DNA from: an uncultured Lachnospiraceae bacterium
GTDB taxonomy: Bacteria > Bacillota > Clostridia > Lachnospirales > Lachnospiraceae
DNA: 64,000 bases
Assembly: GCA_902789665.1 (NCBI GenBank)
Contig: CADAOY010000001.1
Coordinates: forward strand, 1-64,000
Direction of reading: 5' to 3'
The position numbers and the translations under genes are program-made. Below are positions 4,409-59,707 of the stretch, piece by piece; position 1 is the stretch's first letter; each line of letters opens with the position of its first letter. The notes beneath the pieces were generated by a model. That model saw nothing but the letters and a program-made list of their open reading frames with translations, ran no database searches and was not told the origin of the DNA.

Positions 4409-4449
4409 GTTATTCTTTTGTTGCTACCAGTATGTCAGTATAGTATAGA
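4409..4449 (+). promoter_or_regulatory. Direct-repeat operator and promoter of the first giant-protein operon
   Basis: GTTATTC-TTTT-GTTGCTA, two heptamers with 11-bp period, is followed by TATAGT/TATAGA -10 candidates (4439-4449). The second heptamer supplies TTGCTA, spaced 17 bp from TATAGA. It matches similar repeats before the other three giant-protein transcription units, although the first half-site here is the most diverged. The remaining 4450-4590 leader shows nothing else recognisable; the RBS AAAGGGG precedes the start. Confidence 0.5.
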
Positions 4450-4590: not shown

Positions 4591-7500
4591 ATGCCATTTG
4601 ATACAGTATTAAAATTTAAACCAACACTTAATAATTCAGACGAAGCATTAAATGCAATAATACAGGATGATGAGAATAGAAAAAATGATTTTACTCAGAG
4701 TATTACATCATTTATAAATTCAGCAATAAATGCCAATCCACATATTGAAAATTCAAAGACTTACATGATTAGAGCCATGGAGACTACTGAAGACTTAATG
4801 CATGAACTTACCATGGAATATGTGATTGGTATTATTCCTAAGGAATACTATATTGGAATGATAAGTAACCTTAATAAGTTACTTGATATGATAGCGAAAT
4901 TTGATCCTAAGAATCCTAATCAGGAGTTTGGCTATAATAAGTGGGAACAGGACTGGCCGAAACTTTTTGTTGAAAGTGAAGAAGGTGATTATGACAAGCA
5001 GAAGACGGCCATGATCCGTAGAATGGGAGGACTTCGTATTCATCTTAATCCTCTTACCGAAGATATGCTTGAATTACTTCCTCAGGGTACTCAGGATGCC
5101 TACAAAAAGGGTTTTGTCGTAGAGGATAAGGACAAGAAAAAAGATGAAAATAACAATGTCATAGACGATGATTTACTCTTTGGATTCAATGGTAATTATG
5201 ATTACAAATACGGTTTGAAGAATAAGTACCGTTTGATTAATGACAATGAAATGTCAGCTCTTGATGAGAAAACAGATTTTAGCAGAACTAAAAACGCAAT
5301 AGATGAATTTGTTAATGATTCAACTGATGATTTAAATACAAAATTAAATAAAAATGCAGATGAAAAGAAAGAGTTTGACACAGTTCTTTCCAACATTCAT
5401 TTTTCAGCTCAGGCAAAAGATGAAATTATTTCTTTATATATGCTCTGGGCAATGGCTGAGAAGAATATGTCTTTTGAAGATGCTTCAAAAGTATTCGAAG
5501 ACAATGGACCGGCTCAGGAAGATGTTGATGCATTTAAGAAATTCTGTAAGGATAATCAGATCTTAAATCAGAATGACAACGAGAATAAATATAGTGAGAA
5601 GATAAAGAACTGGTCTGACTTTATAGTTAAGGCCATGAACAAAATTAAAGGTTTTCAGATTCCGGATATTGATTACAGTGACAAGAATGCTGTTACTGAT
5701 AAATATAAGGAATTCTTTTTGCTTGCGAAGATGGGTTCTGTCGTATGCGACAAATTAATTGGAGTAATGCTAAATAGAGATAACCGCACAGAACTCAGTG
5801 CCCAGAGTGTTGCCGTAAAGGCCATGGGTGGTGAGAAAGAATTTATGAAAAATATTCGTTTCTGGTCAACCATGCGTAATATGACAAAGCATTTTACCAA
5901 CAGTTTTTACAGAGATGATATTAAAGATGTACTTGCTGAAGAAGAATCTTTAGAAGATAAAAAGGAAGCTCTTAATAAAGAATTTAACGACAGACAGGTT
6001 GAATTCCACCGTTTTGGTCAGATTATGGATAAGCAGAAAGGAAAGACCATTGGTGAAGCAACTGACAGTTTATCGCTTGAGTTCAGGGCTGGTGAAAAAG
6101 CTTACAATGATATTCTTTGGACGCAGTCTAAAACAATCCCTGATAATGAAGTTTTCGACTATGCAGAAGGTATAAATAAACAGGCCTATACTGATAAAAT
6201 GAATGCTTTTTATCAGGAAGAATTAAGCAAAGACAACAAGCATATTGCACACGAACTTCCAATGAAGAGTTATGAAATTGTGACTAATCCTAAGCATTCA
6301 AAGGAGCAGGCTAATGCTATTTTGTCATCTCCGGTTTCAGCAGAAGGAACAATTAAATTCTTAAAGAAAAAAGATGCCAAAGGCAAATTGTATTCGGAAT
6401 ATATCAATGAATTCTTCGGCAGATACTATACCGATGTAAGTGTTGATTCTTTACTTGATATTAATAAAACAATCTCCGATCTTTTCCTGATTGATGGTAA
6501 AACTCCAGAAGAACTCTGGGGTGAAAAATATAAGAATGTTCAGGATGCGGCAGATAAGGAACTTTATTACCGTACTGAAATATACAGGGCAATTCTTCAT
6601 CAGGAGAAAGATATTAAGGTAAGGGTTTATGAGCTTGAGAATAATAAACTTAAAGAGACTCAGACTGTAACCCTTCTTCCAAATAAGGATAAACTTGAGA
6701 ATTTACTTAACAGTTATGAGATGTATAAAGAGGTTGCAGGTGACCTTCTTGCAAAACTTAGTGCATATTATAACCACCTTGAGGAAAATCAGGAGAATAA
6801 TGCTGAATATCAGAATATGCACGATTCCTTAAAGAGGGTCGTTGATACAATTGGTAAGCTTGATAAGAAAAGTAATGTTAAGTTAACTGATGCTTTTGAA
6901 AATCTCAAACAGTTTAAGGATGCTTTTATTGCATATTGCAGAAAAGTAGAAGCTGATGGACCAGACGCTTATAGAGCTAATCTGGACACTGATTCTGTTC
7001 CTGATGAGTATGACTTAACTGATACAGTTGATGTCATGTCAGAACTTGTTAAGGATATGAGTGCGGAAATATTCACAGGAGAGACGAATAATATCAGCAC
7101 CAGTGAACCTACACCTAAAATACTTTATATTACAAAAAATAACTACGAAAGATTTACCTGCCAGTATCACGAATCAAAGTTAATGAACCCAAATGAAATC
7201 AAAGAAAAGGTTCGTGAATTAAAGGAAGATATAAAGAATAAAAAGCAATTTGCAGATGTAAGAACAAAGGTAATTAACAATCAGGCATTAACACCTGAAG
7301 AAATGATTATTTTTAATTCAAGTGTCAGATATTATAACACCAATGCATATCTTTCACAGCTCAAAACAGAAATTGGACAGAAACTTGTTTTGCCACAGAA
7401 TAATCCAAACAAACAGAGATATCGTGAAGCTTTCAGAAAGGTTCCTTTCGCATGCGACAGAAGTGACAGCATGACAGGTGTCTTCATTATCTGGAATATG

Positions 7501-10071: not shown

Positions 10072-10102
10072 AGGGAAATAATCTTAGAAAAGAGGTAGAA
10101 AT

Positions 10103-13100
10103 ATGCCACGTACTATTTATTATGCATACAGAGATAAAATCGATGATCCAAAAGTCGCAAAGCAAAAACTGCTTGAAGAACAGAAGGCAAAGGAAGATAA
10201 ATTTGCCGCTGACTTCGCTTTGAATGTTGACAAAATGAAGCAGGCGGAGAAGGCAACTGATGAGGAGAAACAGAAAAATACATTTGTTAATGCAGAATAT
10301 TATAAAAGGTCGGCCATCGAGTGTATAAATAATTATATGCATGATCTGTCTCTTGATTACAGAATCGGATTAATACCTAAGGAGTATTTCCTTGAGAGAC
10401 TGTATCAGCTTAAGAAACTTAAGGCTGATTTTAACTATAAGTGCACTCTCCCTTCGCTATTTTTGGATAATCCGGAAGGTCATTTTGAAGAGAACAAGAC
10501 TGTCTATAACCGTATGATGGGTGGATACAGGAAACGCTGGAATCCTATGACTCCTGAAATAATGGCCCTGCTTCCTGATGACACAAGAGAGGCTTATGAA
10601 CTTGAAGAGCATTTGCTAAAATTTCGCGAGGAACAAAAGGCAAATGAGAATAACATTGATAATAATAATGAAATCATTGATGAAGAAGACAGAGATGATA
10701 TCGACATAAGCTTTGACAATCTTCCTGATGATGATGCAGATGATTTAGTTGCAGTTTATGCCGGTCCGTTAGATTACAAACGTGCTTTAAAAATAGAATA
10801 TCGTAATGTTACCAAAGAAGAGGCAGAGGCACTTAATAAGGATCTTGATGTATTTGTAACAACACAGATAATCAGCGACGAGCAGGATGCCTTTTTAGCA
10901 TTCTTCAAGAGTACATTCAAAGATGAAGCGGAAATCGAAAATTTTTATACATGTCTTACAAACAACAGTATTTCCCGCAGAGTTAATGACGTAGAAGCCG
11001 CTTTTATGGTATGGGCCATGGGCGAGGAAGGTATGTCCCTCTCAGAGTCCGTTAATTATATTGCCAGCCCAAACAAGGATGTAAAAGTATTTGAGAGATT
11101 TAAGAAATATTACAGGGACAATCAGGTCTTAAACAAAACAGACAATCCGGCTGAATTAAAGAAGGCTGTGGAGAATATTGTAAAAATGCTGGAAAATGCC
11201 ATGAAAAAAATCAGGGAATACAAGCTTCCTGATATAGATTTTATGGACTTAAAGGCAAAAGATGAAAAAGCATTTCAACATTATTACAGAGAATTTTGTG
11301 CCATATCTGATATTTGTCTGAATGTTAATCAGGACTTCATTCAGAAAGTTCTGGTATTAAATAACGGCAAGGAAGATGGCATTAATCTGATTGCTGTCAA
11401 TGCAGCAGGAGGATTGGATAAATATAGTGAGTTAATGTCTTTCTGGACAAAGTGTCAGGCCACCACTGAACTGTTCGTCAGAGCTTATGGAGACGTAGCT
11501 AAAAAAGATAATCTTAACCGTTTTGATAAAGAGAATTTCAGACGCGATATCAAGGTTGATATTGGTGTAAAAAAAGTTGCGGATTATATGTGCAGACGTA
11601 CACTAAAGAGACTGCAGGGCAAGCCTTTGGGTGAAGCTTTGGATAAAGATCATCTTATGGCTCAGGCAGACTGCATGGCTTTTAGAACAGGATATCAGAC
11701 CGGCGACAACTTAGATGATATACCTTTTGACGATATTTGCGACTATGCTAGCGGCGTGAATAGCCGTCCATTTATGGATATTGTTGAATCTCAGTTACCG
11801 GCTGCTTATAAAGAAACTTACTCTGACAGAACTAAGGCAATCGCATCAGGATATCGTACTATAGTTACGGAAAAGCCAAAACATTCCAAAGAAGTAATTG
11901 AAAATATTATTTATTCTCCTTCATCACCTAAAGAAGCATTGGAGTTTCTTAACAGTAAGGACGCATCCGGTAAAACATATAAGAATTATATTATGGATAT
12001 GTTTGCCCCGCTTTGTTCGGATGAAGTTGGACTGCTGAATATAAGAGAAACCGGTAATAAACTCTCAGAACTCTTCTTAATAGACGGTAAGAGCCTCAGT
12101 GAATTATATGGCGAAAAATACAAGGATATTAAGAATCCTGATGATAAAGAATGGCTTTTAAGAGTGGAACTTTTCAAGGCAATGCACATGCAAAACCGTG
12201 AAATCCAGGTAAAGACTTTTGAGATGGTTGATGGAGCTATTTATAAGGAAACAGGATACGTTACCCTGCTTCCTCGGATAACAAAAATGGAATCCATCAT
12301 CAATAACTATAATCTCTTTATGACTCAGACAAAAGACATGAAGAGTTCTTTAGAGGCTTATCAAAAAGTGCTTGATGCTCACAAGGAAAATACAAAAGAG
12401 TATAAAGCTCTTGTGAAGAGTCTTAAAGGATTAATTGGCAAACTTGATTATGCAGGATTTGTAGGTCGCACTTTTGATCTTGAGAAACTTCCGGAAGAGA
12501 TTAAGAAACTTAAGAAGGACATTGATACTTTTGCAGCTACTGCTGAAGATTATGATAAGCCTGAACATATTGCCAATAAGATGACTGTCAAGACTATTAA
12601 AGACAGTCTTGATGGCGCGGAGGAACTTGTTTCTGATCTTGTTAAGGGTATGAAGGGTGATATACTTGTCGGCGCGTATTTTGACCAAAGGCTTAATAAA
12701 GTAACGATTCAAAATGCAGAAAATCTGGTAACAGCATATAATAACTTTTCAACATCCTATAACAAGTCCAATGTATATAAAGCAGAAGAATTAAAAGACA
12801 AGCTTGAGGAAAAGAAAAAAGAACTAAAAGCAAAGAAAAAATATGCGGATGTTAAGAAAAAGTTTGCTGAAAAAAAGAATCTTACTTTGGAAGAGGTAGA
12901 GGTACTTAATAATAATGTTAGTCTTTACAATTCCTCCAAGCAGATGAGCGAGTTTGATATTGAACTTTCAAAGATGTTTACTCATCCGCAAAATGATCCA
13001 AAGGTAAAGGAACGTTTGGATATTCTTGCCGGTGTGCCTGTTAATAACACGAGAGGCAGCTCTATTGCAAAAGTTTTCGTTGCATGGAACATGGGTTATA

Positions 13101-15664
13101 ACAATATGTCATTTGAAGCTGCAGCAGCTCTTTTGAATTCAGACAGGGTAGCTCAGTCGATGGATGCTTTCTTTGAGTTTTGTAAAAATAATACCATAAT
13201 GGCTAACAAGCATCCTGATAAGGCAAAGGAAGCTGCATATAAGTGGGCAGAAATAATGCAGAATGCCACCAACAGGATGAAGGAATACAGATTCCCTGAT
13301 ATAGATTATAACGATTTTGAAGCGGTAAAACCTTACCTGAATGAATTCTCGTTATTAAAGGGCATATCCGTTGATTTTGTACAGGAACTCATACAAAGGA
13401 TGGGAAATTGCAGCATTCGTTCTGGAGTTGGTACAGACAACAAAGAGTATCCGCTTAGAAATGGTAAAGATTATTTTGAAGAGTACTTTGGCAGCACCAA
13501 CACCCTGCATGAGATGGAGATTTTCTGGAGAAAATTACAGGTGCCTGCCGGATTATTTGATGCGGCCCATAATGTTGCGAATGATACAACATTCTTTGAC
13601 AGGTGGAAAACGGGCAGTAATTTCACCCTTAGAAACAATATGTATGCATCAGCAGTATCCGATGTCTGTGCAAGGAAATATCTCAATAACTTAAAGGGAA
13701 AAACCATTGACAGTATTTCCAGATATGAATGTAGTTTAGGAAATGTTCTTCTTAAAGTAAACAAGTTTTCAGGTGCAAGATATCAGAGTGGAGAACTGGG
13801 AGAGCAGACCGCAGCAGTTCTTGATTACATGGATGGAACAAATAAAGGACCTCTGTCAGAAGTAATAGAAAAAGATGTTTCTAAAGACGTTAATGCGTTT
13901 ACCAAAGGCAAGCTTGCAGCTAACTGCATAGATTCATTTATTGAAAATATGCACTTTAATGAAGCGGAAGTTGCAGCCCTTCTTGGTGCCGGAGATGATG
14001 CTCAGGCAATGCTTAACTTTGTTAATTCATCGACCGGTGCAGCTAATTCACATTTAAACATTCTTAATGGTATGTTCGCAATATTTTATGCCAGGGATAC
14101 CCTGAATGCTGTCCAGTCTGTGGGCATGGATGTGCTTGATCTGTTCAGGATTGATGGAAAGAGCGCAGAAGAACTCTGGGGAGCAAAATATAATAATTAT
14201 TCCAGGGTAGAAAAACAAAGATGTTTAAAGGCTGAAATAGTCAAGGCGACTTTGCAGGGTGAGAAGGAGATAAAAATTCAGTCCATAATTATAAAAGACG
14301 GTAAATACCTGTTGAGCGATCTTTATACTGCAATTCCTAAGAAAGCAGATACAGTGAAATTTGTTGAGAATGTTGCATTATTCTCGGCAGTTGCAGATAA
14401 AATGATTGAGAAACTGAACGCATTTCATCAAACGCTTAAGAATACGCAGAGAGATAAGAATGCCAATTTCAAGAGTAATGCCAACGAAGGCTCTGAACCG
14501 TATCAGAAGATGTGCAAGGCTTTGGCAAGTGCTCTTTATCTGCTCCAGAATCCTAATCATGATGCTTATTCAATGGGAAGGATTCAAAGAAGACTTAAAG
14601 AATTCCATGAAGCTGCTGAATTCTATTATAAGAGAGGCAAGACATCCAATCCTGCAAGGCTTGAAGTTGCAAGAGAGGCCACTAATGACATTCGCTTCTA
14701 TGTGGATGCATTAGCAGATATTAATAAGAAATCAGATTTGCCACTGTTTATCAGAAGTGGCAAGAATGCCTGCGTGGAATCAGAGTTCTTTGTTGTAAAA
14801 AGATGTGCTGATGATTTGAAAAATTATTACCGGACATCTGCGCCACTGCCTGAGATGAATCAAAATGAAACTCATGAAAAACTTCAGGGTGTTCTTAATC
14901 TTAAGAAAGCGCAGTACGAGTACAGAATGCATATTACATCGGCCATTGGCGGCGTACCGGATTCATCGAAGAAACTGAGTACAGCAGATGCTGCCAAACT
15001 GCTTACATTTAATCAGTACATGGAGGTGGCTTCGGCAGATTATAATACTGCGCAAAGCGTTAAAGGGTTAAAGGATCAATTCAGCGTCGGTGATTTTAAC
15101 AATTCGGTTAACGAACTTAAGAATAACAAAGTCTTTGAATTATTTGTTAAAAAATACCCGCGCAAAGCTCCTTACAAGTGGGCGGATGCCTTGAAAAAGG
15201 CTTCTGACATAGTAAATGAGTGCAGAGCATCTCTTAAGTCTTTAAATACTTTACAGTCTGATATTAAGGACTATGTACTTGATGACAGGATTAAACTTAC
15301 AGCAAAGAAAAATCATAAACAAAAAGACAGATATGACAGATTAGGTGAAGTCATTGCAAAGCAGATTATTATCGATCCTCATAATAAGTCAGTTCCGCAG
15401 GCAATAGGAGCAGGACTGGTAAGTTACAAGGATATTGTGAAGGCATGTACAGACAGTCTTAGAAAAGACAACGTGCTCGCATATGATAATCCTGCATTTA
15501 CTCCTGAGAATCTTCAGGAGCGAATTACAGACGGAAGTCTTAAAGCGGAAGTACTTAATAAGATTTCATCGCAGTTTACAAATAAGATGAAACAGGAAGC
15601 TAAAAAACAGGAGCCTGAAACACAGAATGCACCAAGACAGAGCACTGCAGGACCTGTTGTATAA
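10103..15664 (+). CDS. Giant protein, family A (copy 2), function unknown
   Basis: An 1,853-residue paralogue of the preceding gene, colinear along its whole length: N-terminal IGLIPKEYF block, FMVWAMGEEGMSLSES (~298) and FVAWNMGYNNMSFEAA (~988), LIDGKSLSELYGEKY (~655) and RIDGKSAEELWGAKY (~1343), and a related C-terminal domain with NKVFELFVKKYP and YDRLGEVIAKQII. Residues ~190-215 are very acidic. Divergence between copies is high away from these blocks, so the duplication is old. RBS AAAGAGGT, ATG start. No secretion signal or enzyme motif. Shares operon and presumably role with copy 1. Confidence 0.85.
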   Translation: MPRTIYYAYRDKIDDPKVAKQKLLEEQKAKEDKFAADFALNVDKMKQAEKATDEEKQKNTFVNAEYYKRSAIECINNYMHDLSLDYRIGLIPKEYFLERLYQLKKLKADFNYKCTLPSLFLDNPEGHFEENKTVYNRMMGGYRKRWNPMTPEIMALLPDDTREAYELEEHLLKFREEQKANENNIDNNNEIIDEEDRDDIDISFDNLPDDDADDLVAVYAGPLDYKRALKIEYRNVTKEEAEALNKDLDVFVTTQIISDEQDAFLAFFKSTFKDEAEIENFYTCLTNNSISRRVNDVEAAFMVWAMGEEGMSLSESVNYIASPNKDVKVFERFKKYYRDNQVLNKTDNPAELKKAVENIVKMLENAMKKIREYKLPDIDFMDLKAKDEKAFQHYYREFCAISDICLNVNQDFIQKVLVLNNGKEDGINLIAVNAAGGLDKYSELMSFWTKCQATTELFVRAYGDVAKKDNLNRFDKENFRRDIKVDIGVKKVADYMCRRTLKRLQGKPLGEALDKDHLMAQADCMAFRTGYQTGDNLDDIPFDDICDYASGVNSRPFMDIVESQLPAAYKETYSDRTKAIASGYRTIVTEKPKHSKEVIENIIYSPSSPKEALEFLNSKDASGKTYKNYIMDMFAPLCSDEVGLLNIRETGNKLSELFLIDGKSLSELYGEKYKDIKNPDDKEWLLRVELFKAMHMQNREIQVKTFEMVDGAIYKETGYVTLLPRITKMESIINNYNLFMTQTKDMKSSLEAYQKVLDAHKENTKEYKALVKSLKGLIGKLDYAGFVGRTFDLEKLPEEIKKLKKDIDTFAATAEDYDKPEHIANKMTVKTIKDSLDGAEELVSDLVKGMKGDILVGAYFDQRLNKVTIQNAENLVTAYNNFSTSYNKSNVYKAEELKDKLEEKKKELKAKKKYADVKKKFAEKKNLTLEEVEVLNNNVSLYNSSKQMSEFDIELSKMFTHPQNDPKVKERLDILAGVPVNNTRGSSIAKVFVAWNMGYNNMSFEAAAALLNSDRVAQSMDAFFEFCKNNTIMANKHPDKAKEAAYKWAEIMQNATNRMKEYRFPDIDYNDFEAVKPYLNEFSLLKGISVDFVQELIQRMGNCSIRSGVGTDNKEYPLRNGKDYFEEYFGSTNTLHEMEIFWRKLQVPAGLFDAAHNVANDTTFFDRWKTGSNFTLRNNMYASAVSDVCARKYLNNLKGKTIDSISRYECSLGNVLLKVNKFSGARYQSGELGEQTAAVLDYMDGTNKGPLSEVIEKDVSKDVNAFTKGKLAANCIDSFIENMHFNEAEVAALLGAGDDAQAMLNFVNSSTGAANSHLNILNGMFAIFYARDTLNAVQSVGMDVLDLFRIDGKSAEELWGAKYNNYSRVEKQRCLKAEIVKATLQGEKEIKIQSIIIKDGKYLLSDLYTAIPKKADTVKFVENVALFSAVADKMIEKLNAFHQTLKNTQRDKNANFKSNANEGSEPYQKMCKALASALYLLQNPNHDAYSMGRIQRRLKEFHEAAEFYYKRGKTSNPARLEVAREATNDIRFYVDALADINKKSDLPLFIRSGKNACVESEFFVVKRCADDLKNYYRTSAPLPEMNQNETHEKLQGVLNLKKAQYEYRMHITSAIGGVPDSSKKLSTADAAKLLTFNQYMEVASADYNTAQSVKGLKDQFSVGDFNNSVNELKNNKVFELFVKKYPRKAPYKWADALKKASDIVNECRASLKSLNTLQSDIKDYVLDDRIKLTAKKNHKQKDRYDRLGEVIAKQIIIDPHNKSVPQAIGAGLVSYKDIVKACTDSLRKDNVLAYDNPAFTPENLQERITDGSLKAEVLNKISSQFTNKMKQEAKKQEPETQNAPRQSTAGPVV

Positions 15665-15678
15665 GGAAAGGCTGAAAT

Positions 15679-17112
15679 ATGAAGGGCTGTGATTATAAGA
15701 ATCTGACTATTTCTTTTAATAAATTTCATAATCTTGTTGATAAAGATGTACCTGAGTATGGGGAGTACTGTCTTCTTGAATTAAAAGACGGACGTTTGAC
15801 CGGTGGATCATGGAATCCGTCTGACTGGGAACACAAAACCGCAGAAGGCAGCTTCATAAGGGGAACTGGTGAGAGCGTAGAGGCTTCTGAAGTAGCCAGG
15901 TGGCATTCTCTTGATAAGGATACCATAGCAGGCTGTCTTGAAAAAGACGGGGTTAATTATATTGATATCGGCCCTGAAACTGATGATGGCTCTTCAGTAG
16001 AAGTAGAAGGGTTTAAGTCCTTTAAGGATAAGGATTATCCAAAGAGCGAACAGTTCTGTTTTCTTATTATGAAAAATGGTGATCTGGCGGCAGGAAGATG
16101 GGATAAGCTGGATGAAGAAGACGGGGATTTTATCTATGGGTCTGCCCTTGCAAGTCATAACATGGAAGATGTGTGGGCGTGGGCGCCATTAAGTCCGGAT
16201 GAGTTTTTTGAAATGGAGCAGGAGTCGGAAAGAGAAGAAAAACTCGAAGAAGAAATGAATCTCAATCCTTCGACTGATAAAAAGAAATTCAAATACGGAA
16301 CAGATATTGAAGTCTATTATGACAAAGCATTGGAGAAACTTCTTGTTAAATATCCATGGGCGACCAAAAATCAGATGAAGAAGGTAACCCCATGGGAGAT
16401 AACTCCGCTTCACGGAAAAAATGTATTCGGACAGGTTTCAACCGGATACAAAAATGCCAGGATTGTTGATGAATGGACAGATGGAGAGAGTGCCGATGAG
16501 TTCATAGATTTCCTGTGTGAATATACGAAGAGAGCAGTGGAGAATTCCAATCCTGAAGAGAAATTCAAGTATGGTACTGATATTAAGGTATATTTGCAGA
16601 AGGCATTTGATGAGGTTAAAAAAGAATATTCGTGGTTAGAACCACAAATGCTGGAAGTTAAATGGCATTATGATATCCAGAAGATTAATGGTGAGTTGGA
16701 GTTTGTAACCGCATACGGAGACAGCTATAAATACTACATACGTGAGTGCGGGTCAGCTGAAGAATTCATTAAAACTGTCATCAGAGATTATCAGGAAGAA
16801 GCGCTTGAAGCCAATCCGGTTGTGGATTCATATGATGTTCATTTTGGCCATGTTGAGATTCATGGATGGAATCTTGAACGCTACAGAGTTTACAAGCTTA
16901 AGAGCGGCGACTATAAGGTAAGTGTTCAGGCAGGTGACAGAGTGACAGGTGGAACCAGGGAATTCTTTATTACACCGAACTGCTTTAAGACGAAATCCTA
17001 TGAGACATTCTTAGACCGTTACCTTGAGATAGTTCCGGGGGAGCACTTCGGTCTAAAGAAAAAAGATCTTCTTGCTGACGAGAAGTTAAAAAAGTTTTTG
17101 GGTTTTAAATAA
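15679..17112 (+). CDS. Repeat-built 477-residue protein in the giant-protein operon
   Basis: Function unknown. The protein reads as A-A-B-B-C. Two ~65-residue units near 8-75 and 108-175 share the pattern 'Y-x-C-x-L-x-x-K-x-G-x-L-x-x-G-x-W'. Two ~90-residue units near 205-295 and 297-380 each open with KFKYGTDI. A distinct ~100-residue C-terminal domain follows. Soluble, no signal peptide; the W/Y/G pattern suggests small beta modules, unlike its helical neighbours. It starts 14 nt after copy 2 of the giant protein with RBS AAGGAAAGG, so it is almost certainly co-transcribed and perhaps a partner. Confidence 0.75.
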   Translation: MKGCDYKNLTISFNKFHNLVDKDVPEYGEYCLLELKDGRLTGGSWNPSDWEHKTAEGSFIRGTGESVEASEVARWHSLDKDTIAGCLEKDGVNYIDIGPETDDGSSVEVEGFKSFKDKDYPKSEQFCFLIMKNGDLAAGRWDKLDEEDGDFIYGSALASHNMEDVWAWAPLSPDEFFEMEQESEREEKLEEEMNLNPSTDKKKFKYGTDIEVYYDKALEKLLVKYPWATKNQMKKVTPWEITPLHGKNVFGQVSTGYKNARIVDEWTDGESADEFIDFLCEYTKRAVENSNPEEKFKYGTDIKVYLQKAFDEVKKEYSWLEPQMLEVKWHYDIQKINGELEFVTAYGDSYKYYIRECGSAEEFIKTVIRDYQEEALEANPVVDSYDVHFGHVEIHGWNLERYRVYKLKSGDYKVSVQAGDRVTGGTREFFITPNCFKTKSYETFLDRYLEIVPGEHFGLKKKDLLADEKLKKFLGFK

Positions 17113-18043: not shown

Positions 18044-20098
18044 TTATAATTTGATATTTGGCCTGGCATCAGTCTTAGGTTTGTTCTTAGCCTTTGCTGC
18101 GTCACTCTTTGCTTTTAATTCCTTCTTTGTTTCATCTTTTTGCTTCGCATTCTGGCGTGATGTGAGGGTTGATCTGTAGGAATTTCTTAATTCTACTCTG
18201 TCAGTATACTCATTAACAAAGTTCTTTTGGAGATTAATTGTGTTTAACTCTTTTGCATTATCATCTCTTCCATGAACTTTGTCAAAGTTCACCTTATCAG
18301 CATAATAGTTGGCGCGCTCACCAATATATCCAAGCTTATCAAAAAGATTTATGGCCATATCGATACGAGGCTGTTCTCGGTACTGCTTTAGGCTGGAGTT
18401 CCTTCTTGATCTGTCTTTATCAAACTGATCCTGTTTGTGATCAAGGTATCTTTGAACAAGATCTTTGGTTTCGTTAATCTTTGGTCCTAACTCTGTAAAA
18501 ATCTCCGCATATGATTTAACATCATCGTCATCAAAGGCTTCTTCTCTTTCCTTTTTAAGACGCTTAACATCTCTTACAAGATTAATCAGACTTCTCTTCA
18601 TATCTGAGAATTCATCTGATGAACGAAGAGTCTTTGGATCAACTTTTTTCAAATCCTTAAGCATGTAATCAAAGTTCTTCTCGAGCTCTTCCATGGTCAT
18701 ACCTTTTAGGTATTTTTCATTGGATCCTGCAACCTTTCTAAAAAGCAGGGAATTGTTGCCCATTTCTACTATTGTAAGATTTCTTGCTGCAGTATCATAG
18801 TATGATTTAATTAAAGGTACATCTGCAAGTTTATTTCTGGTTTCCTCGTTGCGGGAATAAAGCTGTCTGAAAATTTCATTATATGGTTTAAGTACCGGCT
18901 CAAAATCACGTAAAAGAGAATTTCTTACATCAGGAGATGTAACATATGAATTAAATAATCTGTCTACAGGTTCCTTCATAAGCTTTTTGAGATCCAGAAG
19001 CTGTTTCTTCTCTTCTTCAGTAGTATCTTTATTTTTTAAAGCTTTATTAACGAATTCCTTCGCCTTCTTAACTTCACGAAGAAATGGCATATCCACTGCA
19101 GGCCAGCCTCTGTCCATGAGCTCTATCTCAAAATCGATATCATCAAGTCTTTCTCTGGTATATGATTTCTTGCCGCTGAGATCATCTGCATACAGTTTAT
19201 TTTCCGAGATTTTTTTATTGTCATTAAGAATCGGATGCATGGAAGAAACAGCAAGATTCTTTGTCAGAAAATGCTCCTGAGTATTTAAGTATTCCCTGTA
19301 ATCGTGGTTATATGTCGGATTATAACCTATAAGTTTATCCTTATCACGATACTTCTTATCGCGGAGATATTTGGTCATATAAAAGTTCTGGGTATTTATA
19401 TACTGTTCAAGGAGGCCAAAATTCTCGCTGGCCATATCAAACTTCTTCGGGTCTGTTTTATAAGTATTATCCTTGGAGTTTGAATCCTTGAAAAAAATCC
19501 CCGGCATAACTTTGATGCCATTCAAAGCAGTTCTGTAGTAGTCTGAAAAACCATCTATTTCATCAAGATAATTTTCTGATTTTAAGATAGTAATATTATT
19601 CTTTAAAACCTGAAGCAGCATCTTCTGATGTTTGGAAGCATTTTTATTATATTTCTTCTGCATCTTATCAAGAAGGTTATCGTAATCATCTAATAGTTCA
19701 TAGAAATCCTTAATTACTTTTTGATCAGAAGTTATGCTGTATGTAAGACCTTTTTGGTTAGGAACAGGACTTGTATTTACGGTAGAATTGCCATCTGCCA
19801 CATCCATGGAATAATCCGTATATAAACTGTCAAATTCCTGTGATAATTCATTTAATTCATTATCATAATCAAGAAAGATATTCTTAAGTTCAAGACACTC
19901 ATTGTTAAAGGCTCTTATTAAATCCACAGGTATTGCAGAAGGGATTTTTGGCGTATCGTCTTCATATACATCCGAGTCTTCACTTAAGTCTACTCCATCA
20001 AAGAAAGTATCAATATCTTCCTGATCTCCTCCGTAAACGTCCCCGGGTTCCATATCTTTAGCTTCGTCAATTACGTCATAGTTATCAGATTCTTTCAT
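18044..20098 (-). CDS. Large coiled protein, family B (copy 2), function unknown
   Basis: 684 residues, soluble, no signal peptide or enzyme motif. The first ~45 residues are strongly acidic, the core is helical and charged, and the last ~40 are K/A-rich and basic. Conserved with the upstream paralogue are the MKESDN start, GWPAVDMPF (~330), FNSYVTSPDVR (~380), MLKDLKKVDPKT followed by SS..F..MKRSL (~480-505), and REQPRIDMA (~590). The VD..T..SS..F..MK..L pattern also occurs in the 797-residue protein at 23-25 kb. RBS GGAGG lies in the 21-nt gap from the upstream gene, so the two form an operon. Confidence 0.82.
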   Translation of the reverse strand: MKESDNYDVIDEAKDMEPGDVYGGDQEDIDTFFDGVDLSEDSDVYEDDTPKIPSAIPVDLIRAFNNECLELKNIFLDYDNELNELSQEFDSLYTDYSMDVADGNSTVNTSPVPNQKGLTYSITSDQKVIKDFYELLDDYDNLLDKMQKKYNKNASKHQKMLLQVLKNNITILKSENYLDEIDGFSDYYRTALNGIKVMPGIFFKDSNSKDNTYKTDPKKFDMASENFGLLEQYINTQNFYMTKYLRDKKYRDKDKLIGYNPTYNHDYREYLNTQEHFLTKNLAVSSMHPILNDNKKISENKLYADDLSGKKSYTRERLDDIDFEIELMDRGWPAVDMPFLREVKKAKEFVNKALKNKDTTEEEKKQLLDLKKLMKEPVDRLFNSYVTSPDVRNSLLRDFEPVLKPYNEIFRQLYSRNEETRNKLADVPLIKSYYDTAARNLTIVEMGNNSLLFRKVAGSNEKYLKGMTMEELEKNFDYMLKDLKKVDPKTLRSSDEFSDMKRSLINLVRDVKRLKKEREEAFDDDDVKSYAEIFTELGPKINETKDLVQRYLDHKQDQFDKDRSRRNSSLKQYREQPRIDMAINLFDKLGYIGERANYYADKVNFDKVHGRDDNAKELNTINLQKNFVNEYTDRVELRNSYRSTLTSRQNAKQKDETKKELKAKSDAAKAKNKPKTDARPNIKL

Positions 20099-20119: not shown

Positions 20120-22204
20120 TTAGAATTTAATTGTTCTGCCTGCCTTCTTTTCTTCAGGCATGATGTTGTTTTTAAAAGTCTTATCTGCTCTCTTGGCATG
20201 CTCAATATTTGCATCGTTATTTGCTCTTCTTTGGTTAGAAGTAAGATTGCCTCTGTAATTCTGAAGTTCTGTATATCTGTTAGCTGAAACTTTGTTAAAA
20301 TCAGCCTGCACCTTATCCATATACTGCTGTTTTTCTTCCTTGGTAGCTCCAGGATTGTTATTACTAAACTTATTGGCACTTAAGATATAATCTGCACGCT
20401 CCGTAATATAACCAAGTTTTTCATAAAGGTTGGTTGCCATTTCGATACGTGGCTGTTCCCTGAACTGCTTAATCCATTTATTTCTTCTCTGACCATTTAA
20501 TCTGAACTGATCCTTCTTGTAATCAAGATAGGCCTTGGTTAACTGCTTTGTCTGCTGCATATCATCAACAATTTTACTAAGGAACTGGTCATAACTTGGT
20601 AATTTATCTATCTGACTCAAATCAGTATCTGAATGCTTTGCTATTCGCTGATTCATTGCCTTAACTTCATTAACAAGACTGGTTAAACTTCTTTTCATTT
20701 CTATAAACTGACCTGATGATGAAACAGTTTTGGGATCAACCTTCTTTAAATCCTTAAGCATATATTCAAGGTTGGTCTGAAGTTCTTCCAGTGAAAGACC
20801 GGTCAGTGTATTATCACCATTCTGGTCTTTAGTGATTATAAGTGGATTGGTTCCGGCTTCAAGGAATTTAATCGGCTTACTTACAGTATTATAGTAAGAT
20901 CTGACAAGCGGAAGATCTGTTCCGGTATAACCGTTTTTAACTGAATCGCGGTAAACGATTGGTAATTTTACTTCATTGTATTTTTTAATTGCCGGTTCCA
21001 AATCTGCCAGCAGTTTATCTCTTACGGCAGGAGATGTTACATATGAATTAAATGCTCTTTCGCAAGGTTCCTTCATGGCAGCCTGAATTTCTTCGTACTT
21101 CTTTCTTAAGTCAGAAGGAATATTCTTATTTCTTAAGTCCTTTGCAAGCTGTTTCTGAGCTTCCTTAAGAGCTCTGAAGAATACCATATCCGCTGCCGGC
21201 CAGCCGTTATTCATCAGCTTAAGTTCCATATCAATACTCTGGATTCTCTGTGATGTATATGAACTGTCTGAACCGAATCTTATTTTATAATCCTTGCCTT
21301 CATCGTCAGCAGTGGACTCACTTCCTATTCTGTTCTGATTCATATTTGCATAGAGGTGATTCTGTTTAAGATACTGTTTCTGCTTATTAAGATATTTTCT
21401 GTATTCGCTGTTGTAGTTAAACGATGCATTGTAAAGATGAACATTGTCTTTGGTACGAGCCTCGTTTACAGGCTTAAAAGTGCCCATATAGAAATTCTGC
21501 GTACTGATATACTGATCAAGTAAATTGTAATCATTGATATATTTATCAAATTTTTCCGGCTTGAGTTCAAGCTCTTCCGGATTCTCAGGGTTTGTAAAAT
21601 AAATGCCAGGTAATCTGCCGGCGCCATCGATTGATGTCAAATAATAATCCGGAAATTCGCTAATGTTATCAAGATAATCATCGGCAGTAATAATATCAAG
21701 ATTATTCTTTAGTACTGTAACAAGTTTTTTCTGATTTTCAGTACCTTCTTTTTTGTAATACTTTTCCATCGCAGCGAGAACTTTCTTATAATTTTCAACC
21801 GCCTCGCCATATGATTTGATGGTTTCCTGGTCATCCGTAATGTCAAATGAAACAGGGTGTCCCGGAATAGATACTCTGGTTGACTTTACCTTATTTTCCG
21901 ATACTTTATCAAAATAGTCGTACTGTAAATTTTCAAATTTATTCATGGCACTATCAAGAGGGTCCACAAATTCAGGAAAAATATACTTTAAGTTGAATAA
22001 TTCCTCTTTCAAACGAAGGATAAGTGTGGCGTTTATGAATACCGGGTCTCCGGCTACAGGCTCGTTAAACTTAATATCGTCAAAATCATCGTCCTTAGGT
22101 GAGTATTTCTCGCCCGGAACAACATCTTCGTGTGATACGTTATCCTTTGATACTTCAATATCATTTCCTTCAATTACGGTTGAGTTGTTATCTGATTCCT
22201 TCAT
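20120..22204 (-). CDS. Large coiled protein, family B (copy 1), function unknown
   Basis: 694-residue paralogue of the downstream gene and first in their operon. Same plan: acidic N-terminus, charged helical body, basic C-terminal tail. Shared blocks are GWPAADMVF, FNSYVTSPAVR, MLKDLKKVDPKT with SS..F..MKRSL (~480-507) and REQPRIEMA. No membrane segment or export signal. Its promoter region carries the 11-bp-period repeat seen upstream of the other giant-protein genes, and it is divergent from mntP. RBS AGGAGG reads just upstream of the ATG. Confidence 0.82.
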   Translation of the reverse strand: MKESDNNSTVIEGNDIEVSKDNVSHEDVVPGEKYSPKDDDFDDIKFNEPVAGDPVFINATLILRLKEELFNLKYIFPEFVDPLDSAMNKFENLQYDYFDKVSENKVKSTRVSIPGHPVSFDITDDQETIKSYGEAVENYKKVLAAMEKYYKKEGTENQKKLVTVLKNNLDIITADDYLDNISEFPDYYLTSIDGAGRLPGIYFTNPENPEELELKPEKFDKYINDYNLLDQYISTQNFYMGTFKPVNEARTKDNVHLYNASFNYNSEYRKYLNKQKQYLKQNHLYANMNQNRIGSESTADDEGKDYKIRFGSDSSYTSQRIQSIDMELKLMNNGWPAADMVFFRALKEAQKQLAKDLRNKNIPSDLRKKYEEIQAAMKEPCERAFNSYVTSPAVRDKLLADLEPAIKKYNEVKLPIVYRDSVKNGYTGTDLPLVRSYYNTVSKPIKFLEAGTNPLIITKDQNGDNTLTGLSLEELQTNLEYMLKDLKKVDPKTVSSSGQFIEMKRSLTSLVNEVKAMNQRIAKHSDTDLSQIDKLPSYDQFLSKIVDDMQQTKQLTKAYLDYKKDQFRLNGQRRNKWIKQFREQPRIEMATNLYEKLGYITERADYILSANKFSNNNPGATKEEKQQYMDKVQADFNKVSANRYTELQNYRGNLTSNQRRANNDANIEHAKRADKTFKNNIMPEEKKAGRTIKF

Positions 22205-22262: not shown

Positions 22263-22294
22263 ATTATAGCATATAAGAGCAACATAAGTGCAAC
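22263..22294 (-). promoter_or_regulatory. Direct-repeat operator and extended -10 promoter of the family B operon
   Basis: On the minus strand: GTTGCAC (22294-22288), TTAT, GTTGCTC (22283-22277), then TGCTATAAT, a consensus extended -10 (TATAAT 22268-22263). The first heptamer gives TTGCAC 19 bp from the -10. The repeat pair is the clearest of four such elements in the window. Confidence 0.62.
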
Positions 22295-22397
22295 AAGGAA
22301 GGAAAGCTGTAAACCTTGCATAAAATCAGCGTTATTTGTATAATTAAAAGGCTATACCAAAAAGGAAAAACATTAGGGATTTATTAAGGGATTTATT

Positions 22398-22979
22398 ATG
22401 GATATATTTGAAGTTTTATTATTATCAGTTGGTCTTGCCATGGACGCTTTTGCAGTCTCTGTGTGCAAAGGTCTTGCTGCAAAGAAAGTAACAATAAAAG
22501 AATACCTTTTATGCGGATTATGGTTTGGTTCATTCCAGGCAATTATGCCATTCATCGGATTTTTGTTGGGCACCCGTTTTGAAAAAATCATCAACATCAT
22601 TGCTCCATGGCTTGCATTCGTACTTCTTGCATTTATCGGAGGCAAAATGATTAAGGAAGCTTTTGATAATGATGAAGAGGTCAAACCGGGCTTTGATCTT
22701 AAAACCATGTTTTTGATGGCAGTAGCCACAAGTATCGACGCCCTTGCAGTAGGCATCACCTTTGTTGCCTATCCTGCAAACGTCCTTAAGATGGGCGTTA
22801 TTGCCAATGTAATCTTCACAGTCATCCTTATCGGCGTTATTACCTTAATTGTCTCAATGATTGGCGTGTGGATTGGCAAAAAGTTCGGTGACAAATTAAA
22901 AAAAGGAGCCGAAATCGCAGGCGGTGTAATACTGATTCTAATTGGCTTAAAGACAATAATCGAGTATCTCTTTTTCTAA
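22398..22979 (+). CDS. mntP: Manganese efflux pump MntP
   Basis: 193 residues with six hydrophobic segments. The family's paired aspartate motifs are present: LAMDAFAVS in the first helix and SIDALAVG in the fourth, plus a GxGxM-like IGGKMIKEAF. By family it exports Mn(II) through the cytoplasmic membrane and protects against Mn excess. ATG start with AAGGGA upstream. In many bacteria it is controlled by a Mn riboswitch (yybP-ykoY) or MntR; I see no clear match to either in the 190-nt leader. It sits between two giant-protein units but has its own divergent position; no functional link is implied. Confidence 0.93.
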   Translation: MDIFEVLLLSVGLAMDAFAVSVCKGLAAKKVTIKEYLLCGLWFGSFQAIMPFIGFLLGTRFEKIINIIAPWLAFVLLAFIGGKMIKEAFDNDEEVKPGFDLKTMFLMAVATSIDALAVGITFVAYPANVLKMGVIANVIFTVILIGVITLIVSMIGVWIGKKFGDKLKKGAEIAGGVILILIGLKTIIEYLFF

Positions 22980-23012
22980 GTTGCACTTTTGTTGTACTAA
23001 TGATTCTATCAT
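22980..23012 (+). promoter_or_regulatory. Direct-repeat operator before the 797-residue gene
   Basis: GTTGCAC (22980-22986), TTTT, GTTGTAC (22991-22997), then a weak -10 TATCAT at 23007. It starts one base after the mntP stop codon and shares spacing and sequence with the operators of the other giant-protein operons. Confidence 0.55.
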
Positions 23013-23043: not shown

Positions 23044-25437
23044 ATGGCATCGGATATTTACAATAAATCAAAAAAAATACAGAAACAGGCTGAAATGGAT
23101 GCAGAGAATACAAAGCAGATCCTGCTGGAGAATTTCTTTGACATGAAAGAAGACAACAGGGAATCCATGGTTGCCGAGATGATGCTGAATTTGTACATAG
23201 TTAATACAGGAAAAGCTCTTGATGAAAAGAAGAAAAAGACAGCGGAAGAAATCGTGATGAAGGGCTTATATAACTATAATATTGAAAATGATGAGGCCGA
23301 ACGACTTAAGAAAAAATATCCGGATATGTTTAATGACAAGATTAATAACATTGTTGAACATGATTTGGAAGAGAGAAGGTTTGAAGACCTGGATGTAATA
23401 CTGGCTAAAGAAGATGGTAAGGATACCATAAGAAATCTCTATCTTGAAGAACTTAAGAAAAGCCAGGCCTACATTAATGTTATTAATGCAAGAAGTACAG
23501 ATGAACTTGATGATGCTCTGACCGCCCTGGAAGCAGAAACCATTGGGGGACTTGATAAGATAACAAATGTTAAACTTCCAAATGTTTCAGAAGAACACAA
23601 CATAAAAAATTATGATGACTATAAGGCGGGAGTAGACAGATCAATTGAGTATCTTATGAACGACCTTAATACACACGAGTGGAAAAAGGATGTGGAAGAA
23701 CAGACTTTAAAGGATCTTCATCCAAAAGCTCTTCAGAAAAATGCTGCATTTATTGATGGTCTTTATGAAGGTATAAAGGGTGTTGATTATCTTACAAGCA
23801 GTCCTAACTTCAGAGCCATGAAGAAGGAACTTGAGAACCTGAAGAAACTGGCAGACAGACTTGCAAAGAAGAAAAAGTTTGTGAGTCAGAGGGAGAAAAT
23901 TCTTTATAAGAATCAGGCTGATAAAGTAATAAAACTTGCGGATGTTTATCTTGAAAACAAGAAGGACATTAATGGTCCGTATGCTGAAAACAGAGTTAAA
24001 CAGGTAAGGGATTTAAGAAGAAAATTAAGGACAAATAATCTTGCTCACGGAGAATTATATGCGTCAATAGAAATTGAGACAATTGACTGGGCCTATGGTA
24101 AAAGGTATGACAATATGAACAGATATGATGCCATAGGATATGTTAACAGAAATATTTTCCTTGGCAAGTATACACCTAAGGATGTTTTATCCAAGCCATC
24201 TGATTTTTCACTTGGACGTTCTGCAGGATTTTCAATTTCAGTTTTTGTATTGCTTAACATGGGATATAAGGCTGAGGATATTCTTGATAATCAGAAATTT
24301 CATGAGGAAAAGGCTCAGGTTTTTGATGATGTTTTAAGAAGATGTACCAGCGGCACAGAAGAAGATAAAGAGTGGCTTGCTCGTCAGATGTATGAGGGAT
24401 TTAAGAAGGCTGATGCATTCCAGGATGAAACTCTTAAGAAAATTGATTTTACAAAAGAAGAAATATTTACAGATAAATATTATGCAATGATGCATAACAT
24501 GTCGGCTGTTATTTTTGATGTGTTCCAGGAAATGAATCATGTGCTGGACAAAGTGGAAAATCTGTATAAGGAAGATGAGACAATACCGAATAAAAAGGAA
24601 GAAGAATTCTATTACTACAGAAGAAACAGACATGGAATTATCAATCACCTTAGTGACGAAATCACCAAAATGAGAAGCCCTTATGTACAGATAAAACTGG
24701 ACCCGAAGAGTTCTGATGGATACTATGAGGAATTAATAAATCACAGTGTTAAGTGTAAGTTCTATATGGATCTTCTTAAGGATACACAGCAGAAGGGACT
24801 GCCGTATACTGAGGCTTCAGTGCCTCTGAGCAGTGTAATGGATAATTTCTCTGTTGATGCCGACAGGTATCTTGGGGATTATTACAAGGCTTATGTTATG
24901 ACAGCTGATGAGACTTCAGCCATTGTTGACAATATTATGGATTTAAGTATTTATAAGAATCTTAAGATTGATTTAAATAACAAAAAGCAGATATTCTCCA
25001 ATCTGCCAATGCCTGATGATATTAAGTTGCTGGCAGCAGATAAGAAATTCATAAAGAGTGCGGAGAAGGCAATAAAGCATTTTGAAAATGATAATTTTGA
25101 TGATGCCGAGGCAGTTGATAATTATGTGAAGGATGCCGCCACAATCGCAGTTTATAACATGTATAGAATGACCGGCAAGCATCCTGTGGATCCGAAGACT
25201 CAAAAGCCTATGGAACTTGAGAAAGCGGCCAGGGCGCTTAGCGGTAATAAGGTATTTCTGAAGATGATAAGGAATAAGGATGGAAATCTTTTCCGTCATC
25301 CTTTGGAAGTGCTAAAGGTACTTAAGTCCCCTGAGAAACTTGTGAAGCTTGCTAATGCGATGGAAGGGAAGAAGCCCCAGGGCGCGGAGGTTAAAGCAAA
25401 ACCTAAGGCACCCGGACATAATCTGCCACGTGCATAG
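23044..25437 (+). CDS. Large protein, family C, sharing modules with families A and B
   Basis: 797 residues, soluble, K/D/E-rich, helical, no signal peptide. Residues ~240-265 read KGVDYLTSSPNFRAMKKEL, a close cousin of the KKVDPKT..SS..F..MKRSL block of the two family B proteins. Residues ~389-500 contain FVLLNMGYKAEDIL, followed by a W-containing helix and an IDF...Y..M..MS segment, matching the order of the repeated 'W-x-MG...MS' module of the family A giants. The tail NKVFLKMIRNKDG...LKVLKSPEKLVKLA recalls their C-termini. The protein therefore bridges families A and B. RBS AAAGGAG, ATG start; a terminator follows, so it is monocistronic. Function unknown. Confidence 0.82.
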   Translation: MASDIYNKSKKIQKQAEMDAENTKQILLENFFDMKEDNRESMVAEMMLNLYIVNTGKALDEKKKKTAEEIVMKGLYNYNIENDEAERLKKKYPDMFNDKINNIVEHDLEERRFEDLDVILAKEDGKDTIRNLYLEELKKSQAYINVINARSTDELDDALTALEAETIGGLDKITNVKLPNVSEEHNIKNYDDYKAGVDRSIEYLMNDLNTHEWKKDVEEQTLKDLHPKALQKNAAFIDGLYEGIKGVDYLTSSPNFRAMKKELENLKKLADRLAKKKKFVSQREKILYKNQADKVIKLADVYLENKKDINGPYAENRVKQVRDLRRKLRTNNLAHGELYASIEIETIDWAYGKRYDNMNRYDAIGYVNRNIFLGKYTPKDVLSKPSDFSLGRSAGFSISVFVLLNMGYKAEDILDNQKFHEEKAQVFDDVLRRCTSGTEEDKEWLARQMYEGFKKADAFQDETLKKIDFTKEEIFTDKYYAMMHNMSAVIFDVFQEMNHVLDKVENLYKEDETIPNKKEEEFYYYRRNRHGIINHLSDEITKMRSPYVQIKLDPKSSDGYYEELINHSVKCKFYMDLLKDTQQKGLPYTEASVPLSSVMDNFSVDADRYLGDYYKAYVMTADETSAIVDNIMDLSIYKNLKIDLNNKKQIFSNLPMPDDIKLLAADKKFIKSAEKAIKHFENDNFDDAEAVDNYVKDAATIAVYNMYRMTGKHPVDPKTQKPMELEKAARALSGNKVFLKMIRNKDGNLFRHPLEVLKVLKSPEKLVKLANAMEGKKPQGAEVKAKPKAPGHNLPRA

Positions 25438-59593: not shown

Positions 59594-59660
59594 TATAATC
59601 GGGGTATATAGGGGTTAAAATTTGCTTGTTGCACATTTGTTAACATTGATGGGGTAGAGT
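59594..59660 (+). promoter_or_regulatory. Direct-repeat operator before the proline-rich giant gene
   Basis: GTTGCAC (59628-59634), ATTT, GTTAACA (59639-59645), 11-bp period, followed by a weak TAGAGT at 59655. A better-looking -10, TGTTATAAT with TATAAT at 59594-59599, lies just upstream, so the repeat may act as an operator downstream of that start. It is the fourth member of the set described for the giant-protein operons. Confidence 0.48.
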
Positions 59661-59707
59661 TAAGGCAGATGTTGATAAAAATTCTTTGTGTTTAGGAGGA
59701 TTTGGAT

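Follow-up and report, generated by a model that had tools for sequence, protein, structure and literature searches.

A shared direct-repeat box suggests co-regulation of giant-protein genes and a chromosomal type IV secretion system in a Lachnospiraceae bacterium

The stretch of DNA analyzed here (64,000 nucleotides, positions 1 to 64,000 of contig CADAOY010000001.1 in assembly GCA_902789665.1; hereafter the window) comes from an uncultured Lachnospiraceae bacterium and contains four transcription units for giant proteins, each preceded by a pair of GTTGCAC-like heptamers at 11-bp spacing, which we call the box. The same box is found across the genome, ahead of further genes for large proteins and ahead of a chromosomal type IV secretion system (T4SS). 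Taken together, our sequence comparisons suggest that a single response regulator, similar to the Streptomyces antibiotic regulatory proteins (SARPs), co-activates the T4SS and the giants via this box, and that the giants probably act with the T4SS. We put the probability of this reading at roughly 77%.

The original prediction had placed four heptamer pairs in the window, and direct reading of the sequence finds all of them; it also confirms that CTT directly precedes three of the four. The boxes and the -10 elements at 8-9 bp from them are:

22294-22277, minus strand: box GTTGCAC-TTAT-GTTGCTC, upstream of the 694-aa giant
22268-22263, minus strand: -10 element TATAAT, 8 bp past the 22277 box
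22980-22997, plus strand: box GTTGCAC-TTTT-GTTGTAC, upstream of the 797-aa giant
23007-23012, plus strand: -10 element TATCAT, 9 bp past the 22980 box
59628-59645, plus strand: box GTTGCAC-ATTT-GTTAACA, upstream of the family D giant, with a second repeat that is only GTT-like
59655-59660, plus strand: -10 element TAGAGT, 9 bp past the 59628 box
4409-4426, plus strand: box GTTATTC-TTTT-GTTGCTA, the weakest of the four, upstream of the 1826-aa giant

A consensus scan restricted to the window and allowing three mismatches was not significant (5 matches versus 4.47 expected) and missed the sites at 4409 and 59628. Its place was taken by a genome-wide pattern and by a scoring matrix built from 24 sites, all outside the window, with which both window strands were scored. 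The four boxes hold ranks 1-4 of this scoring (25.4, 23.3, 22.2 and 16.5) and rank 5 reaches only 12.1, in agreement with the earlier claim that no other promoter of the window has such a pair. In 20 Markov shuffles, the top matrix score was 16.2 and the mean of the best scores 12.7. Since the best shuffle score of 16.2 comes so close to its own score of 16.5, the 4409 site is likely but weak, barely above chance on its own.

The genome that holds the window (G000; 2,248,303 bases in 10 contigs) has 40 matches to GTTGCACNTTTGTTG with at most two mismatches, versus 2 for the reversed pattern. When a -10 element at fixed distance is added to the pattern, there are 26 matches with at most three mismatches, versus 1 reversed. 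These sites lie mostly upstream of giant genes; a scatter over random positions, or a place ahead of many ordinary genes, which had been named as the outcome that would speak against a regulon, was not found in this genome. Several of the 40 matches are inside other open reading frames (ORFs) or have no -10 element (C1:107139 and C5:896 are examples).

The genome-wide form of the box is GTTGCAC-WTTT-GTTR, usually with the -10 element 12 nt after it. In 27 aligned sites, most of them found by a pattern that already contained the -10 element, conservation is strong in GTTGCAC, in the linker (TTTT or ATTT) and in the GTT that opens the second repeat, and the remainder of the second heptamer is loose; a T precedes the box in 25 of them. 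As a check on the spacing, we took from the 40-match scan the 19 sites with at most one mismatch, chosen without requiring a -10 element: in 11 of the 19, TANNNT lies exactly 12 nt past the 15-mer, plus one at 11 nt, versus at most three at any other offset from 0 to 59. Because of this fixed spacing, the repeats come to lie at about -38 to -32 and -27 to -21 relative to the start and, judged by this geometry, the box is what takes the place of the -35 element. Enrichment, fixed spacing and giant targets are consistent with the original idea of a single regulon, in which an activator would sit near -35 on a single face of the DNA.

What the box precedes was inspected at all 22 of the 26 sites that carry at most two mismatches, found with the search pattern that includes the -10 element. 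The first downstream ORF has at least 600 aa at 16 of these 22 sites and 482-598 aa at three. Among the 16 are an 1812-aa protein of the T4SS region with a signal-like N-terminus and another protein that reaches beyond the fetched stretch at 3210 aa. At the remaining three sites the box leads to the T4SS pilin (139 aa), to a CvpA-like protein of 282 aa (Colicin_V, E=4e-5, below the cut-off), which leads an operon that also encodes a phage-tail-lysozyme domain, and to a 98-aa peptide that we take to be of the Nif11-like family. The predicted regulon of giants is supported as far as the giants go, but its proposed members are not giants alone: the T4SS operon, what is probably a wall-hydrolase operon and a few small genes belong to it as well. 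At one site (C5:42536) the box falls within the last part of an upstream ORF, and a 1657-aa ORF follows 222 bp farther on. The targets occur on at least six contigs.

Target length was also compared in a selected set of 28 sites, whose downstream proteins have a median of 802 aa versus 296 for 161 further ORFs in the stretches that hold these sites (p=9e-10); this set drops three 3-mismatch sites (C1:112528, C3:41654, which is before an RpoB-like gene, and C4:64776) and adds five (C1:22280, C1:4409, C3:164503, C3:270303 and C10:18072), a picking of sites of which the count of 22 is free. Several giants are distantly related among themselves. When 28 G000 proteins of at least 480 aa, six of them from the window, were searched against Pfam, 27 gave no match over the cut-off. 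The exception is a box-led protein of 805 aa at C1:332200 (L077:2201-4615), which matches a calpain-type cysteine protease (PF00648, E=9e-9, over the cut-off, with no single stretch below 0.001). Most box targets are without strong hydrophobic segments. Among the G000 proteins of this kind, the charge of the C-terminal 25 residues has a median of +4 in 25 box targets versus -1 in 100 others (p=2e-9); T4SS protein substrates are recruited by a signal at the C-terminus, often a basic one.

At L084:2090-2730 and L085:7696-8282 there are small proteins (96-105 aa) that combine a Nif11-like leader, with SGG at its end, and a Cys-rich part; one pair of them comes directly after a box.

In the window, the giant units are made up as follows:

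4591-10071, plus strand: giant of family A, 1826 aa, first of the family A unit
10103-15664, plus strand: giant of family A, 1853 aa, with 31% identity to the 1826-aa giant over 1821 aligned columns
15679-17112, plus strand: ORF of 477 aa that continues the family A unit, no Pfam match
18044-20098, minus strand: giant of family B, 684 aa, second gene, with 37% identity to the first, no Pfam match
20120-22204, minus strand: giant of family B, 694 aa, first gene, no Pfam family over the cut-off
23044-25437, plus strand: giant of family C, 797 aa, no Pfam match
59708-63601, plus strand: giant of family D, about 1297 aa, with ATG at 59708 and, in the ORF list, an in-frame TTG at 59702
63613-64000, plus strand: second gene of the family D unit, continuing past the window end, related to family A

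As predicted, each heptamer pair stands upstream of a giant unit, with ORFs of 694, 797, about 1297 and 1826 aa. The family D giant has an ortholog with 90.5% identity downstream of a box in another genome, G022 (L132); relatives of the 797-aa giant were looked for in named genomes and none was found. The family A giants (window 4591-15664; L226:8779-18531) are built of repeated modules of several hundred residues each. A family A profile has two matches in either of these window giants and three in a 3250-aa protein of G014.

The box at C3:157286 (minus strand) lies about 80 bp ahead of the pilin start of the T4SS operon, which is on the minus strand. The operon encodes, in this order, the pilin, a 768-aa protein, VirD4, a 326-aa protein, a VirB6-like protein, VirB4 and a STAS protein, and is followed by a second box and the 1812-aa protein. 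The pilin (T4SS_pilin, E=7e-13) and VirD4 (T4SS-DNA_transf, E=3e-55) are over their cut-offs, as is VirB4 for Pfam P-loop_TraG (E=3e-18); with NCBIfam Mbov_0397, VirB4 reaches 532 bits (E=1.8e-159), below the cut-off of 590. The VirB6-like protein has an NCBIfam match with E=1.5e-33. With a predicted VirB4, VirD4, VirB2-like pilin and VirB6-like channel protein in one operon, the locus has the parts by which a T4SS is identified. Farther along are RsbW-like and SpoIIE-like genes (SpoIIE, E=5e-42; the RsbW-like label comes from a look at the sequence only), then a box with a 562-aa protein behind it, and after that another box and the CvpA-like/lysozyme operon. A partner-switching set (STAS/RsbW/SpoIIE) is thus part of the T4SS region (L078, L079; C3:118500-158000), and this region lies some 20 kb away from a flagellin-like gene recognized by eye.

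The candidate regulator is encoded next to this operon. Upstream of the pilin are genes for a histidine kinase (which straddles the border of stretches L079 and L080), a 226-aa membrane-looking protein and a 271-aa response regulator (C3:159214-160029, minus strand). The receiver of the latter is clear (Response_reg, E=4.6e-19). A Trans_reg_C winged helix is found at E<=1 in 23 of 29 regulator homologs (best 1.2e-7), and a profile of the regulator has weak matches to SaeR, EmbR and AfsR (E=0.009-0.09, AfsR at E=0.09). In SARPs, an OmpR-like winged helix at the N-terminus is followed by a BTA domain. Here the winged helix is C-terminal to the receiver, the DNA-binding domain is diverged and has an extra conserved C-terminal stretch, and Pfam gives no match to a BTAD domain in the regulator. 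G000 has a single copy of this domain family at E<=1e-8. In G002, the box sits between regulator and pilin. Of the two regulator types originally proposed, LytTR and OmpR, the second comes close, as the protein joins a receiver to a winged helix of the OmpR/SARP-like kind; the first was dropped, since a LytTR domain is not among the Pfam matches and it is the receiver alone that resembles LytR-type receivers. At two loci (L168:3484-4290 and L200:5433-6254), a box is found ahead of the regulator gene itself, which suggests autoregulation.

The best evidence on which protein would read the box is the covariation of box and regulator across T4SS loci. We compared named loci with this VirD4, taking the best 80 of 199 relatives; they come from rumen and gut Lachnospiraceae, Ruminococcus, Pseudobutyrivibrio, Eubacterium and others. 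Cultured rumen isolates with the locus include Eubacterium ruminantium FB3002 and Lachnospiraceae NE2001, LC2019 and C6A11. In the 73 loci with enough upstream sequence, a box precedes virD4 in 22 of the 28 loci with the regulator in the locus, versus 5 of the 45 without it, some of which end at contig ends; the reversed control gave 0 of 73. This count replaced a loose de novo search for direct repeats, which was too noisy (31 of 73 regions, versus 26 reversed). For the 70 loci of at least 8 kb, we distinguished type A regulators, at least 50% identical to the one of G000 in the DNA-binding part, from all others, called type B. With p-values that are only indicative, because both box patterns were composed after viewing examples and some loci are related, type A regulators go with boxes starting GTTR and then C or A (box A; 18 of 20 versus 6 of 50, p=9e-10) and not with GTTGGAC boxes (box B; p=0.30), whereas type B regulators go with GTTGGAC boxes (7 of 11 versus 5 of 59, p=1.6e-4) and not with GTTR-C/A boxes (p=1.0). 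Box A is present in 15 of the 17 loci that have type A only, and all three loci with both regulator types (L136, L140 and L142) carry both boxes. The recognition-helix region differs between the two types. In L183 and L189 (also L118 and L120), the open frame of the type B regulator has just 191-217 aa, and its receiver is seemingly absent or diverged.

By motif search, 16 of the 80 named loci have a gene for a sigma factor of extracytoplasmic function (ECF) type (145-175 aa, recognized by eye) upstream of the T4SS operon (L156, L157, L160, L162-L164, L166, L171, L174, L176, L179, L186, L190, L191, L198 and L201); others are at L115:7396-7875 and L116:7431-7910. In several of these loci an ORF starts directly after it, possibly for an anti-sigma factor. 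Where the response regulator is not seen in the locus, the ECF-like sigma factor looks like an alternative regulator.

Co-occurrence was examined in 61 genomes (G000 and 60 relatives), in which a T4SS was called by VirB4 with at least 40% identity and E<=1e-40. Such a T4SS is present in 11 of the 61, and at least five boxes of a generalized pattern in nine, eight of which are among the 11. G002 has 26 box matches and G004 has 18, the reversed controls are near zero in box-rich relatives, and the commonest box form elsewhere, among the matches listed, is GTTGGAC-ATNT-GTTGGAC. Giants of family A, detected by profile, occur in 10 of the 61 genomes: 9 of the 11 with a T4SS versus 1 of the 50 without. 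The seven top-scoring regulators are all in genomes with at least five boxes. Fisher tests, which overstate independence because the species are related, give 3e-8 for T4SS versus giants, 5e-7 for T4SS versus boxes and 8e-8 for top regulator score versus boxes.

The sequence comparisons lead us to infer binding of the box by the regulator, activation and export of the giants, along the following lines. The box would be the binding site of one OmpR/SARP-like winged-helix response regulator, most likely the product of C3:159214-160029 (minus strand) with the adjoining histidine kinase as partner. Two protomers would sit on the two heptamers, which are spaced by 11 bp and have their centre between -35 and -10, and, going by geometry and homology, the bound regulator may hold the housekeeping sigma factor at promoters with a poor -35 element. 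In this way the box would drive the T4SS operon (pilin, VirD4, VirB6-like protein and VirB4) and about two dozen scattered genes for large proteins, including the four units of the window. Because the same box would drive both, giants and T4SS probably work together; in the simplest case the giants would be substrates of the T4SS or parts displayed by it.

A number of observations speak against this model. The nearest -10 element to the 4409 box, TATAGT at 4439, is 12 bp off, and there is none at 8-9 bp. Pfam does not recognize the DNA-binding domain of the G000 regulator itself (Trans_reg_C, E=0.24, below the cut-off). The tail charge did not replicate elsewhere: six box-led proteins of at least 480 aa from G002 and G024 have only 0 to +3, and box-led proteins of at least 300 aa in the T4SS loci have a median of -1.5 versus 0 (p=0.08). 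Nor are box targets longer than other ORFs in the T4SS loci (268 versus 322 aa), because most of them there are T4SS parts. Box B is found in two of the type A-only loci, and the eight type B-only loci have box B in only four and box A in one. G022, which is 84% complete, has five boxes and giants and is without T4SS or regulator; the stretch adjoining the T4SS, L080, gives three short weak matches only in this genome. G012 (fragmentary and divergent) and G034 have a T4SS without family A giants and have 0 and 1 box matches, respectively. Finally, G014 has T4SS and giants with one box match only, and next to its T4SS there is an ECF-like sigma gene. A TTTGCAAC-type element (TTTGCAAC-TTTT-TGC) precedes three of its giants and the second T4SS gene (L226, L227, L228 and L115); with a period of 10 bp, once 11 bp, it is box-like and of other sequence (four promoters, judged by eye). 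As giants and T4SS are both kept in G014 despite the changed element, this seeming change of switch would favour a functional tie between them that goes beyond shared regulation.

Chance likeness among AT-rich promoters, to which the non-significant scan of the window alone might point, is already refuted by the near-zero reversed controls in G000 and its box-rich relatives and by the ranks of the window sites in the outside-trained matrix. A sigma-54 promoter, whose consensus is TGGCAC-N5-TTGCW with invariant GG and GC, was likewise rejected: the TTGCAC-N5-TTGC spacing is there, but T replaces the first G of the GG, the GC of the second half is absent in most of the 27 sites, and a housekeeping -10 element follows. 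That the box is an ECF-type sigma promoter instead of an activator site seems very unlikely to us. The 16 named loci with an ECF-like sigma gene, its place next to the T4SS in G004 and G014, and the TTTGCAAC element of G014, which we take to resemble ECF -35 elements, would fit it; the two-heptamer repeat, perfect in several species (GTTGGAC-ATTT-GTTGGAC), is what a dimer would lead one to expect, however, the -10 element is of the housekeeping type, box type tracks regulator type and loci without the regulator mostly have no box. It is also unlikely, if less strongly so, that the activator is another OmpR-family regulator encoded elsewhere and the T4SS-adjacent one a bystander. G022 and G017, with at least five boxes and without a high-scoring intact copy of the T4SS-adjacent regulator, speak for this, while the way in which presence and type of the box follow that regulator across loci, its single domain-family copy in G000 and the box ahead of its gene in L168 and L200 speak against it.

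Similarly improbable, by a shade less, is the idea of an integrated mobile element that would have the T4SS for its conjugation and the giants as its cargo. VirD4, the VirB6-like protein and the pilin do pass the cut-offs of conjugation families (CD1115, Mbov_0396 and Mbov_0395), VirB4 is near that of Mbov_0397, and the genome has one relaxase. However, in searches that covered the families PF03432 and PF00589 only, this single relaxase (PF03432) is on C8 and none is on C3, the contig of the T4SS, the integrases (PF00589) are on C1 and C4 only, and 8 of 24 T4SS-bearing genomes chosen from the 80 named loci have no PF03432 relaxase; the scatter of the targets over contigs does not fit such an element either. 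The strongest competitor, which we consider quite possible at somewhat less than even odds, holds that the giants are cytoplasmic or scaffold proteins that share only the regulator with the T4SS and are not its substrates. In its favour, the tail charge failed to replicate outside G000, and most box targets, being without strong hydrophobic segments, would be cytosolic unless they had a dedicated exporter. Against it, machinery and giants appear to be under shared control, giants accompany the T4SS even in G014 with its different box, and the calpain-type protease match of the 805-aa giant would, in our own reading, suit an exported protein.

The proposed SARP-like regulator has parallels in known systems. 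OmpR/PhoB regulators such as SaeR, whose box is GTTAAN6GTTAA, combine a receiver with a winged helix and use direct repeats one helical turn apart with a GTT core, as here; the diverged DNA-binding domain with its extra conserved C-terminal stretch sets the present regulator apart from them. SARP boxes are described, in an extract of PMC10936776, as direct repeats with a spacing of 11 or 22 bp, of which the 3' one is 8 bp away from the -10 element, and the SARP domain of AfsR as a side-by-side dimer over -35 that holds sigma region 4. The present system is like these Streptomyces SARPs, as far as the extract describes them, in its repeats 11 bp apart, the distance of 8-9 bp (mostly 9) from the 3' repeat to the -10 element, the upstream repeat over -35 and the OmpR-related winged helix (PMC10936776). 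It differs in that the receiver precedes the winged helix, in belonging to a low-GC relative of rumen Lachnospiraceae, and in its targets, which are a T4SS and giants instead of antibiotic genes.

The T4SS is like the conjugative systems of Gram-positive bacteria and mycoplasmas, with VirD4, pilin and VirB6-like protein over the CD1115, Mbov_0395 and Mbov_0396 cut-offs, and unlike them in being chromosomal, in adjoining a two-component system and a STAS/RsbW/SpoIIE set, and in having neither PF03432 nor PF00589 on its contig. To our knowledge, protein-exporting T4SSs are barely known in Gram-positive bacteria. In Streptococcus suis, the VirD4-89K T4SS is reported, in an extract of PMC4897608, to export SspA-1, a surface-associated subtilisin-like protease called the first such virulence effector; that account has one protease substrate, whereas here there would be two dozen large, mostly orphan candidates (PMC4897608). 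Patescibacteria, according to an abstract (PMC12102498), have monoderm-type chromosomal T4SSs, mostly relaxase-less and thought to be co-opted; they differ in phylum and lifestyle, and that abstract describes neither a giant regulon nor a shared box (PMC12102498). A search of the open-access literature on type IV secretion in Lachnospiraceae, the rumen or Gram-positive bacteria, or with giant proteins, did not show a description of the present system among the papers listed; subscription papers and preprints were outside its scope.

At its widest, the reading would be that a chromosomal T4SS lacking a relaxase is widespread among rumen and gut Firmicutes and dedicated there to the export or injection of giants, and that one two-component system switches on both; we regard this as close to a coin toss, just on the lower side. 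If it is true, the four giant units of the window would be scattered T4SS cargo, encoded far from the machine itself. The regulatory code would name the probable partners of the machine at once, so that some two dozen large, nearly all domain-less genes would become candidates. The box can be read from related genomes without any experiment, and box and regulator change together across species.
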